From: an uncultured Fidelibacterota bacterium
GTDB lineage: Bacteria; Fidelibacterota; Marinisomatia; Marinisomatales; TCS55
Assembly (NCBI GenBank): GCA_913049685.1
Contig: CAJWZD010000004.1
Span: forward strand, 1-64,000
Length of the DNA stretch: 64,000 bases
Direction of reading: 5' to 3'
Shown here: in pieces, positions 4,427 to 10,065 of the stretch
Layout: every line of letters begins with the position of its first letter
Numbering within the stretch: position 1 is the first letter of the stretch
The notes under the pieces: model-generated
The model's database searches: none
What the model was told of the DNA's origin: nothing
Seen by the model: only the letters and a program-made list of their open reading frames with translations
Position numbers and translations under genes: made by a program

Positions 4427-6610
4427 TCATTCCATTAATGCTCGAATAGTTGCGTTTGATTTCGCTAATCGATCGCTTAAAAGTCTTATTACATACGTAT
4501 GTAATTCAGCAGCACGATTTGAAGATTCATTTTTTAGTTTTTCAAAGTTTGCGAGAGATAAAAAATAGACTTCGCATTTATTTTCAGAAATTACCGACGC
4601 TGTAGCTAAAGAGTTTAAATACAGACTGACTTCTCCTACAATTGTTCCAGGACCCATAGATTTTAAGCGAATTTTTTTATTTTTATTTGAATTCAACTGA
4701 ACAGTAACCCTACCAGATTTAATAAAGAATAACCCCCGCGACTTAACCCCTTCCTTAATAATCTTAGATTTTTTTTCAAAAATTACAGTCTCAAAATATG
4801 GCAATAAATCAGAAAATTTTGATTCGAATAGTTGTGCTTCACTCAAGCTCTCGTCAAAATCTTGTAGTTCACTTGAAATGATTTCATCTTCGCACCATTC
4901 CATCGCATAATCTAAATCTTGAAATAATTTAAAGGTTTGATTTGATGTATCATTAAAAAGCCCTTCCGCTTTAAACTGATGCATGATGTTTTTGGGTAAG
5001 TTACAAAACAATATTTTAAAACGATTCAAATCTGCCAAGATCTTCATTTTATTAAAACTATTTACCGTTGATGAGTCAATGCCGGAAACAAGTTTAAAAT
5101 CAAATAAAAGAAATTTAAGAGTAGACCCTTTCTTTGATTGTAAATATTCTTTAACATTTTCAAGCAGTCGATTTGCAGAGCCAAAAAATAAATACCCTTG
5201 CAAGGGAAGTATTAATACGAGATTTCCAAATTTTTCTAAAACAGATTTTATTCTATCAGATCGCTCAACATTACTATGAAAATTTTTACCTGTAAGCCTG
5301 TGCTTAATGGTTTTTACTTTTGAGTAATTAACAACAAAAAGCGATACAGAAGCTAAAAGACCTGCAATTACACCTTCAAGAAATCCTATCGACCCAATAA
5401 CAAAAAAAATTAATAATATTACTAAATAATCACTTTTGGGAACGCGTTTCCATGTATTAATTATCCAATCTACAATAAAGGAGGAGCCTAAATAGAATAA
5501 AAGCCCACCAAGGATTATTCTAGGAAAAACAGATAATACCTTTGATCCAAAAAAAAGCGCAAAACCACACATTAACGCCACTACAATTGTGCTTAATTTT
5601 GTTTTTGAACCAATTGAATGCGCCAGAGAAACGCCTCCAAGAGCTAAATGCCCAGGAGGTCCTCCAAAAATCCCTGCTAAAATATTACCGGATCCTGTTA
5701 CTTTTAACTCTCTGTCCAAATCCATATCTTTTTTTATTATAAGCTCTAAACCGCTATAGTTGAAAAGAATAGATATTGAATTAAGAATCATCATGGTTCC
5801 AATAGCAGGCAATTGCGCAAAAAATACATTCCACTTAAAGCTGGCAATATACTTTAACGCAGAACCTTGATACAATCCTCCGTCTGGGAAAGGACCTAAT
5901 AACAATCCGTTAGATTCTATATACTCAAGGGAATATCCATTATAAAACATAATAAAATAAAATATTAAAATGCCCGATACAATGAAGCTTGGAAGTAAGG
6001 AGTAATGGCTAGTAAATCTTCCAGCAATAAGAATTGATATGCCAAATAGAAAACCTGGTAGCCATTTTAATAAAATTGATAGGTCTAAGAGCAATGAAAT
6101 ATTGGTAATAGAAAATTCAATTTCAGCAGTCATAATAAATGCAAATTTGATAATCAACCACCCAGTTCCAGCCAAAAAACCCCCAACAACGGGGTATGGG
6201 ATATATCTAACTAACTTTCCCATTTTGAGAGCACCTAAAATAAAAAAGAAAAACCCTACCATAATTGATGTAAAAGTTATTGTGACAAAAATGAATTGGA
6301 ATGCCTCATTAGGGCTCCAGCTCTTTCCAAAAGTTGCCATCACGTTAGTAGCTATAAGAGCTATTATTGCAATTGGAATATCTTGAGGGGTATTAATATT
6401 TATTGGATAACTAGCTGTAAAAAAAGAAAAAATGGCATAGAACAAAAATCCAAATAAAATAATACCAATGCCTTGTGGCAAAAAAGGTGATAAGGAGCCT
6501 GTAAATATTATTGAGCTCAGAGCCATTGCTATAACAATCAGAATAATCCCATTAATAAATCCAGAAACAATACCGGGTATAATATCAGGTTTCAAAAGTT
6601 TTTTTATCAT
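4427..6610 (-). CDS. SulP/SLC26-type anion transporter with STAS and cyclic-nucleotide-binding domains
   Basis: The 727-residue protein has three parts. Residues about 5-420 form a multi-helix SulP permease with GPPGHLALGG in the central motif and a preceding NSISILFNYSGLE stretch. Residues about 450-560 form a STAS domain with VSGIDSSTVN, the usual position of the conserved serine. Residues about 595-720 form a Crp-like cyclic-nucleotide-binding fold with GRVTVQLNSN, MGPGTIVGEVSLYLNS and ATASVISE. The GEVSLYLNSLATA stretch is the phosphate-binding cassette; the usual arginine before the TA pair is not obvious, so nucleotide binding is uncertain. SulP proteins move sulfate, bicarbonate or dicarboxylates. 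It is a single-gene unit with about 120 bases upstream before the divergent nth. Confidence 0.85.
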   Translation of the reverse strand: MIKKLLKPDIIPGIVSGFINGIILIVIAMALSSIIFTGSLSPFLPQGIGIILFGFLFYAIFSFFTASYPININTPQDIPIAIIALIATNVMATFGKSWSPNEAFQFIFVTITFTSIMVGFFFFILGALKMGKLVRYIPYPVVGGFLAGTGWLIIKFAFIMTAEIEFSITNISLLLDLSILLKWLPGFLFGISILIAGRFTSHYSLLPSFIVSGILIFYFIMFYNGYSLEYIESNGLLLGPFPDGGLYQGSALKYIASFKWNVFFAQLPAIGTMMILNSISILFNYSGLELIIKKDMDLDRELKVTGSGNILAGIFGGPPGHLALGGVSLAHSIGSKTKLSTIVVALMCGFALFFGSKVLSVFPRIILGGLLFYLGSSFIVDWIINTWKRVPKSDYLVILLIFFVIGSIGFLEGVIAGLLASVSLFVVNYSKVKTIKHRLTGKNFHSNVERSDRIKSVLEKFGNLVLILPLQGYLFFGSANRLLENVKEYLQSKKGSTLKFLLFDFKLVSGIDSSTVNSFNKMKILADLNRFKILFCNLPKNIMHQFKAEGLFNDTSNQTFKLFQDLDYAMEWCEDEIISSELQDFDESLSEAQLFESKFSDLLPYFETVIFEKKSKIIKEGVKSRGLFFIKSGRVTVQLNSNKNKKIRLKSMGPGTIVGEVSLYLNSLATASVISENKCEVYFLSLANFEKLKNESSNRAAELHTYVIRLLSDRLAKSNATIRALME

Positions 6611-8381: not shown

Positions 8382-8420
8382 AATTTTCCCTTTATTGGCT
8401 CATGAAGCTTGTCTATCATA

Positions 8421-8455
8421 AAAAACCCTCAATATTCAAGATATTGAGGGTTTTT
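8421..8455 (-). terminator. Rho-independent terminator after the initiator tRNA
   Basis: A perfect 15-base inverted repeat (AAAAACCCTCAATAT at 8421-8435 against ATATTGAGGGTTTTT at 8441-8455) has a five-base loop. Read leftward it ends in a U run and lies five bases past the 3' end of the initiator tRNA. Confidence 0.88.
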
Positions 8456-8459
8456 GTAG

Positions 8460-8533
<74 letters not shown>

Positions 8534-8610
8534 TCATGAATTATTTCAATAATGACTTATAAAAGCGGTCTGAAAGTTAGATGATTTTTATTCTTTAGCC
8601 AACTCTATTT

Positions 8611-8626
8611 TGTGATTCAAATCACA
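8611..8626. promoter_or_regulatory. Perfect Crp-type operator (TGTGA-N6-TCACA)
   Basis: TGTGATTCAAATCACA is an exact match to the two-fold consensus half-sites of Crp/CAP-family regulators, and flanking T/A extend the symmetry to 8+8 bases around a two-base centre. It lies between the initiator tRNA (leftward) and a rightward hairpin with a U run. The centre is 40-46 bases upstream of the position where a transcript ending at 8750 could plausibly start, the spacing of class II Crp activation. Being symmetric, it could instead act on the leftward tRNA. No crp gene is in the window, so the regulator is inferred from the site alone. Confidence 0.6.
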
Positions 8627-8659
8627 AATTTTAAATTAAGTGAAACTTTTAGATATTAA

Positions 8660-8750
8660 GAGAGTCTAAATTATTGCGAGCGCGAAAAATATTTGCCATC
8701 TATCTCTTACCTCTACAAACCTCCTTGGTTTATATCGCGCTCGCTTTTTT
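8660..8750 (+). ncRNA. Candidate Crp-controlled small RNA ending in a long hairpin
   Basis: The 3' part is clear: GCGAGCGCGA (8676-8685) is perfectly complementary to TCGCGCTCGC (8735-8744) and is followed by six T, a terminator signature on the + strand. The 49-base loop is C/U-rich and holds a small inner hairpin (AAACC at 8717-8721, GGTTT at 8727-8731) whose loop exposes UCCUU next to CC, giving ACCUCCUU, a sequence resembling the 3' tail of 16S rRNA. The 5' end is a guess (about 8660), based on a Crp-type site at 8611-8626 and a weak -10 (GATATT, 8652-8657). It lies antisense-adjacent to the der stop codon and could alternatively be a 3' structure of der mRNA. Confidence 0.4.
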
Positions 8751-10065
8751 ATTTTCTTCTAAAAGATAATCTGATTGGAACTCCCTCCAAATTGAAACTT
8801 TCTCTTAGCTGATTTTCCACAAAGCGCTTATAGCTCGATGGGATAAGTTTGGGATAATTTGTAAATATCACAAATAAATGAGGACCGGAGCTGACTTGAG
8901 TCATATATTTTAAACTTATTGCTTTACCTTTTGTAGCGGGAGGCTGTTGGAGTTTTAAAATATTTTGCAAAAACTTGTTCAAATCAGATGTGCCTAAATT
9001 AGTAAGCCTCAAATCATAGACTTGATTGGCAATTTTTAATATACTGCTTATACGCTGCTTTGTCTTAGCAGAAATAAATAACACTGGATAATGGGACAAA
9101 GATTTAAACTGGAGCGACATCTCTACTGTAAAATCTCGCATAGTGTTGGTTTCTTTCTCAATTAAATCCCATTTATTTACAATAATTGCCATACCCTTTC
9201 CTTTGTTAATCACTTCATCGGCTATCGATTTATCCTGCTTTGTAAAACCTTTATACGCGTCAATAACAACCAATACTACGTCAGCACCAATAATAGCTCT
9301 TCTAGTTCTAACGTTACTATAAAACTCTATATTATCATCGAGCTTGCTTTTTTTTCGTAATCCCGCAGTATCAACCAACGTTATCAGCTTATTATAATAT
9401 TTAAGCTTTGAGTCAATCGAATCTCTTGTAGTTCCAGCTATAGGCGTTACAATGGCCTGGTCCTTTTGAAGGAGAGAGTTTGTTATAGATGATTTTCCAA
9501 CGTTTGGCATTCCTACAATGGCTACCCTCATTCCATCTTCATGGTCATTAATTTCAGCTGGACTATTTATCTCGAGTTTTTCTAATATAGAATCGAGCAA
9601 ATCACCTGTTAGTCTGCCGTTTAATGCAGATACCGGATAAACAGGGTCAATTCCAAGTTGATGAAATTGATATACCTGTTCATCGTGATTGAGGCTGTCG
9701 CACTTATTCACTGCAAGTATAAATTTTTTCCCAGAATGGCGAATTAATTTCGCCAGTGATTTATCTGATGCGGTTGGGTCATTTTTACCATCGACCATAA
9801 ATAGTATAAGGTCCGACTCAGAAACTGCTGCTAGAGCTTGATCCCTAACAGCACTATTAAAAACATCTACATCTTCAGGTATGTATCCACCGGTATCAAT
9901 AAATGTTAAAGTATGCCCTGACCATTCTACTTCTCCGTAAATACGATCTCGCGTAATACCTTCCTCAGAACCAACAATGGCTTTTCGCTGCTTTAAAAGT
10001 CTATTAAAAAATGTAGACTTACCAACATTTGGCCTTCCTACTATAGCTATTTGATAATTTGACAT
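8749..10065 (-). CDS. der: Ribosome biogenesis GTPase Der (EngA)
   Basis: This 438-residue protein has two tandem GTPase domains and a C-terminal KH-like domain, the arrangement unique to Der, which acts in 50S subunit maturation. The first G domain starts with GRPNVGKST (residues 10-18) and has DTGG and NKCD. The second has GMPNVGKSS (about 184-192), DTAGLRKKSK and NKWD. The KH-like domain occupies roughly residues 350-438. Length is typical. The gene begins 14 bases after the end of the VOC gene and is probably cotranscribed with it. The stop codon abuts the T run of the GC-rich hairpin at 8676-8750. Confidence 0.97.
   Translation of the reverse strand: MSNYQIAIVGRPNVGKSTFFNRLLKQRKAIVGSEEGITRDRIYGEVEWSGHTLTFIDTGGYIPEDVDVFNSAVRDQALAAVSESDLILFMVDGKNDPTASDKSLAKLIRHSGKKFILAVNKCDSLNHDEQVYQFHQLGIDPVYPVSALNGRLTGDLLDSILEKLEINSPAEINDHEDGMRVAIVGMPNVGKSSITNSLLQKDQAIVTPIAGTTRDSIDSKLKYYNKLITLVDTAGLRKKSKLDDNIEFYSNVRTRRAIIGADVVLVVIDAYKGFTKQDKSIADEVINKGKGMAIIVNKWDLIEKETNTMRDFTVEMSLQFKSLSHYPVLFISAKTKQRISSILKIANQVYDLRLTNLGTSDLNKFLQNILKLQQPPATKGKAISLKYMTQVSSGPHLFVIFTNYPKLIPSSYKRFVENQLRESFNLEGVPIRLSFRRK

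Follow-up and report, generated by a model that had tools for sequence, protein, structure and literature searches.

A conserved terminator-hairpin RNA of Marinimicrobia with an ECF-type promoter and an anti-Shine-Dalgarno-like loop: a probable antisense small RNA beside der

Among the small RNAs (sRNAs) of enterobacteria, RybB bears its seed at the free 5' end. The sRNA described here, encoded on the + strand at positions 8675-8750 of contig CAJWZD010000004.1 from an uncultured member of the Marinimicrobia, the first 64,000 nucleotides (nt) of which were analysed (hereafter the window), has its presumed seed in a closed loop. It is read, with a probability of roughly 80%, as a trans-acting, Hfq-independent sRNA, driven by an extracytoplasmic function (ECF) sigma factor, acting as an antisense repressor of Shine-Dalgarno (SD) sites and probably serving an envelope-stress response as its noncoding arm. 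The sigmaE consensus for micA and rybB, i.e. GGAACTTTT and GTCAAA, is of the promoter type seen here, and outer-membrane protein (OMP) messages are among the candidate targets in the present case, too (PMC1804206); MicA and RybB are, however, Hfq-dependent, whereas no Hfq (PF17209) was found in any of 41 genomes, with positive controls, an exposed and stem-protected seed being therefore a reasonable design. CyaR (RyeE) matches the Crp input, the pairing with an SD site and the OMP-type targets proposed for the present RNA, but it depends on Hfq and an ECF promoter has not been described for it (PMC11795201). The 'cuckoo' RNAs alpha-r14 and NfeR1 likewise keep a conserved anti-SD motif unpaired while their stems change; they are, however, alphaproteobacterial and consist of three hairpins, each with a CCUCCUCCC loop, whereas the Marinimicrobia RNA is one hairpin with CUCCUUGGU (PMC10746234).

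The original prediction had drawn an analogy to Spot 42 and CyaR, to which no sequence relation was seen. No Rfam match to CyaR, MicA, RybB or Spot 42 was obtained: a scan of the whole window at the gathering score returned two tRNAs only, none at the sRNA; that of 8400-8900 at E<=10 gave nothing relevant; and the copies from ten relatives matched no model. The closest logic is that of the sigmaE-dependent OMP-repressing sRNAs outside Proteobacteria, namely FoxI and FoxJ of Fusobacterium nucleatum, which have C-rich seeds and repress abundant envelope proteins, FoxJ (~156 nt) having formerly been misannotated as the 5' untranslated region (UTR) of ylmH (PMC11005410). The likeness, drawn from their published description, covers the sigmaE-type promoter, the C-rich seed, the (here candidate) envelope targets and a phylum far from Proteobacteria; the Marinimicrobia RNA differs in being a single hairpin, in its anti-SD loop and in the Crp box present in some genera. 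As regards the class of sigmaE-dependent OMP-repressing sRNAs, its promoter type is found by sequence in all 51 aligned copies, and Hfq, on which its enterobacterial members depend, was not found in the 41 genomes. For the Marinimicrobia (SAR406), which are uncultured but widespread in the sea, a literature search, with most subscription journals outside its reach, revealed no sRNA study. A structured RNA that spans the order and has an ECF promoter would offer a way into the control of envelope stress in the phylum, which, if the reading is true, would be another distant one after Fusobacteriota in which noncoding RNA extends the reach of an envelope-stress sigma factor.

The perfect 10-bp stem, the 49-nt C/U-rich loop and the T6 tract are exactly as originally noted from the sequence (Table 1); a simple terminator scan passed over the site because the loop exceeds 8 nt. 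When relatives were searched at the DNA level, the element turned up in the window's genus and in several other genera of the family. The first covariance model (R1), built from 13 sequences, matches 28 of 130 genomes of the order, and the second (R2), built from 26, matches 53 of 245 genomes of the phylum, a single one of them—at E = 0.03—lying outside the window's order. The gene der adjoins most of the matches, usually in a convergent orientation, and since this holds even for weak matches, the adjacency provides independent evidence that the matches are real. In the 26-sequence alignment (A2), 97.4% of the cells of the outer stem are paired and nine of the 11 pairs show double compensatory changes, the observed values being reached by none of 500 shuffles. 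In 25 held-out sequences absent from model building (A3), helix 1 is paired in 99.4% of cells, with all seven pairs doubly changed (97 double-changed cells), in an alignment that was fitted to the model and thus leans towards the structure; when the partners are shifted against each other, however, the signal is lost (37-54% of cells paired vs 90.5%). The covariance search proposed with the original prediction thus came out strongly in its favour, compensatory changes being extensive in the stems of both alignments. The suggested inner 5-bp hairpin AAACC/GGTTT (8717-8721/8727-8731), by contrast, exists in the window's sequence but is not conserved; what is kept is the loop sequence itself, with the weaker inner pairing GCCA/UGGU. 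The nonamer CTCCTTGGT is retained in A2 and most of A3, with one row broken by an N, and is replaced by CCCTTGGT in the copies from family f15 (SAR406); here and below, G, g, f, C and L denote genomes, genera, families, contigs and loci, respectively. The conserved core of the loop is CUCCUUGGU, or CCCUUGGU in the SAR406 copies.

With regard to the strand, folding of the single sequence leaves the question undecided because both strands fold: the + strand reaches -23.0 kcal/mol against -12.2 +/- 2.7 in dinucleotide shuffles (z -4.0, 0/200), and the - strand, folded alone, -27.2 (z -4.6). This basis of strand choice was therefore dropped, and it is the comparative data that decide. The good folding of the - strand, together with the position of the hairpin right at the der stop, would suit a rival explanation, which assigns the hairpin to the transcript of der as a structure of the 3' UTR, a terminator or a bidirectional terminator between der and tRNA-Met. 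Substitutions in the outer stems, however, give G.U pairs on the + strand, where the - strand would have A.C mismatches, in 54 cells, as compared with five in the converse state; moreover, only the + side has a U-tract, the hairpin lies ~500-700 nt from der in several relatives (e.g. G006, G046 and G057), and a conserved promoter immediately precedes it on the + strand, so that an origin from der is very improbable. The G.U asymmetry and the side of the U-tract, which is T-rich in most relatives, identify the RNA as a product of the + strand and, along with the covariation, give good support to the original claim of a + strand sRNA with an anti-SD-like loop and an intrinsic terminator. This order-wide conserved structured RNA without an Rfam match is classed here as a new RNA family. 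A CsrB-like protein-titrating role was dropped, the GGA motifs being on the - strand only. Concerning the pattern scans of genome and viral contigs, the named genomes with exact-pattern matches in the same records are Candidatus Marinimicrobia/Neomarinimicrobiota, and records outside Marinimicrobia are attributed to chance, none of those tested matching R1 convincingly (best E 0.22). It should be noted that a copy nearly identical to the g4 type (G099:C103:3832-3901) is found on a 3.9-kb contig of a genome assigned to another family, a bin that may be contaminated.

Upstream of the RNA, the motif G[G/A]AAC occurs 34-40 nt before the modelled stem in 51 of 51 copies, as compared with 4/51 in a control window further upstream and 2.1/51 in shuffles; it is followed by [CTA]?TT in 49 copies and in none (0/51) in the control window. 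About 16 nt after the -35 element, most copies from g1, g7 and g8 have GTCTAA, and many others have CGT- or GTC-like bases. Judged by these motifs, the promoter is of the ECF/sigmaE architecture and not sigma-70-like, and the sRNA would be under the control of an ECF sigma factor. The arrangement GAAACTT-N15-GTCTAA in the window places the start near 8675 and gives an RNA of ~76 nt; the start at 8660 and the length of ~90 nt proposed originally were replaced, since the -10 element occupies 8664-8669. The original prediction had also made the RNA Crp-controlled. A near-perfect Crp box is indeed there, at an activating position of about -57; in related genera it stands near -71 or -82. Its distance to the stem is 57.5 nt in g1, 70.5-71.5 nt in g7 and g8, and 82.5 nt for the degenerate copy in g6, the steps among these genera, relative to the -35 box, being near whole helical turns; the g7 box falls inside the start of a divergent gene. 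Yet an sRNA controlled by Crp in the Spot 42/CyaR sense and transcribed by the housekeeping sigma factor appears quite unlikely: a promoter scan listed nothing on the + strand upstream of the RNA that fits the housekeeping -10/-35 consensus, and the ECF motif is universal, whereas no Crp box was found upstream of the copies outside the four f1 genera g1, g6, g7 and g8. Crp is more plausibly a clade-specific co-regulator than the defining regulator of the ECF-driven RNA.

Table 1 Features of the sRNA locus in the window
Feature	Position	Strand	Remark
sRNA gene	8675..8750	+	~76 nt; start (+/-2 nt) inferred from promoter, end from terminator; covariance models R1/R2
Crp-type palindrome TGTGA-N6-TCACA, TGTGATTCAAATCACA	8611..8626	.	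exact palindrome; upstream copies, intact or degenerate, in g1, g6, g7, g8
ECF/sigmaE-type -35 element GAAACTT	8642..8648	+	G[G/A]AAC motif in all copies
-10 element GTCTAA	8664..8669	+	15-nt spacer from -35; sequence and conservation
Outer stem, 5' arm (RNA start and terminator arm)	8676..8685	+	GCGAGCGCGA
GCCA	8695..8698	+	potential partner TGGT 8726-8729; pairing kept in 93% (A2) and 80% (A3) of cells
Second C/U-rich conserved loop motif TTACCTC	8707..8713	+	in nearly all g1/g7 copies
Conserved loop CTCCTTGGT, presumed seed (anti-SD plus GGU)	8721..8729	+	alignment
Outer stem, 3' arm	8735..8744	+	TCGCGCTCGC
U-tract, T6 (8745-8750) then ATTTT	8745..8755	+	overlaps der stop codon 8749-8751
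der (EngA GTPase), convergent neighbour	8749..10065	-	Pfam EngA KH-like and MMR_HSR1 domains; end at 8749 falls inside sRNA U-tract
tRNA-Met, divergent neighbour	8459..8533	-	same layout in f15 (SAR406) copies

According to the proposed mechanism, an ECF sigma factor would transcribe the sRNA from this promoter, probably during envelope stress, and a Crp-type regulator bound at the palindrome would add nutrient or cyclic-nucleotide input in the window's family. The RNA, being essentially one hairpin, would hold out its single-stranded C/U-rich loop on the terminator stem; CUCCUUGGU in this loop would pair with ACCAAGGAG at ribosome-binding sites (RBSs) and block initiation, the repressed messages being in the first place that of a 69-amino-acid membrane protein and in the second those of TonB-dependent receptors. 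As for the targets, the loop complement ACCAAGGAG precedes an ATG in all 22 genomes searched, and a recurrent gene among those behind it encodes a hydrophobic membrane protein of 69 residues (G000:C13:38007-38210, - strand; orthologues L261-L310). The protein occurs in 105 of 130 genomes of the order and is frequently encoded by two paralogues in tandem. This protein has no NCBIfam match, and Pfam gives only a sub-threshold TrbC/VirB2 pilin for one homologue. Its gene, widely conserved across the order, is preceded by a terminator-like hairpin. Of 20 genomes compared, 18 have Watson-Crick runs of 9-15 bp between the sRNA and the RBS of this gene, and the two f15 genomes have 10 bp, one U.G included, so that most of the lineages examined reach 10 bp or more; families f2 and f11 use a different part of the RBS or the loop. 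The second recurrent class with ACCAAGGAG at the RBS, in g2 and g3, consists of TonB-dependent receptors with plug domains, and receptor-like starts similar to this class occur also in g6 and f11. The 69-residue protein is the best candidate target and the TonB-dependent receptors are secondary ones, both suggestive only. Energy-only target ranking, based on a crude gene caller in G000, was dropped in favour of the exact-run analysis, since misassigned starts dominate it (the 69-residue gene ranks 78th).

The same loop could also make the sRNA a global mimic of the 3' tail of 16S rRNA, whose ACCUCCUU would compete for SD sites generally or titrate a translation factor without dedicated targets. 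Such a role would agree with the complete anti-SD core in the loop, where C/U-rich copies often number two or three, and with the lack of a difference in pairing between own and cross targets; it is nevertheless rather unlikely, for the conserved core runs past the anti-SD into GGU, which is needless for SD pairing. Moreover, in the 1.60 Mb of G000—a genome 79% complete, read as a nearly complete contig set with gene starts called by a simple script—the only two occurrences of ACCAAGGAGG are the one opposite the loop of the sRNA and the one at a single RBS, that of the 69-residue protein, and the pairing with this gene, of up to 15 bp, exceeds in g2, g3, f6 and f7 all 494 background RBSs of G000.

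Several observations weigh against an ECF-driven antisense repressor with these targets. The U-tract is weak in the g4 copies. In G026 the pairing run lies upstream of the SD, outside the ACCAAGGAGG motif, and strong SDs pair 7-8 bp by themselves. When sRNAs and targets were permuted among the lineages, own pairs were not better than cross-lineage pairs (p = 0.25; by energy p = 0.10); both the sRNA and the target sites are conserved, with no demonstrable co-evolution. In f7, genera g23 and g30-36 retain ACCAAACCAAGGAGG at the 69-residue gene, yet in nearly all of them the sRNA was not found; either the RNA has diverged beyond recognition there, or the extended RBS has another cause. Finally, the similar promoter-like GTTGAAACTTTTTATGGT...TTTGTT, which in itself speaks for ECF control, heads an operon in G000 where an ECF sigma gene (C29:10969-11490) is accompanied by an anti-sigma-like gene and by genes for small exported proteins, and also stands upstream of the orthologous operon in G004; assigning this sigma factor by its autoregulatory promoter was rejected, as the motif was seen in these two g1 genomes only and was not confirmed in other genera.

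A second ECF sigma factor (L358-L364, e.g. G006:C5:131616-132155) is conserved order-wide, including SAR406; its gene immediately follows a holA-like gene and precedes an anti-sigma-like one. This holA-linked factor is a candidate sigma factor for the sRNA. With regard to f7, exact CTCCTTGGTTTG matches in g23 and g30-36 were rejected as the missing sRNA, most of them being the antisense of the target RBS and the others having no such hairpin. In the g5 genomes, where the sRNA was not found, the 69-residue gene has TTCAAGGAGG, which is consistent with a loss of pairing. Taken in its widest form, the proposal would make this the founding sRNA family in an Hfq-free phylum, integrating the envelope-stress input of an ECF sigma factor with, in one clade, that of Crp; its terminator-hairpin loop, a mimic of the anti-SD tail, would control TonB receptors and the 69-residue membrane protein in SAR406 and its relatives. 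For that whole, the odds are put at slightly below even.

Concerning the Crp-type box, G000 contains five perfect TGTGA-N6-TCACA boxes, as compared with none for a control palindrome, which is read as a small Crp-like regulon in Marinimicrobia. Four of them, further to the one at the sRNA, are located at C1 69755, C8 45431, C17 28927 and C20 14187; one of these four precedes, by ~200 bp, the gene of a Crp homologue that has the conserved RETVSR recognition helix, and others are near genes for signal-peptide proteins. Upstream of the sRNA in G002 (L058/L003), the box is changed on both arms to TGTAGCATTGCCTACA with the palindrome retained, a possible shift in regulator specificity. In the window itself, the gene at 4427-6610 (- strand) encodes a SulP-type transporter with a STAS-like region, the C-terminal stretch of which weakly matches E. 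coli Crp (E 9e-7) as a cyclic-nucleotide-binding-like domain.
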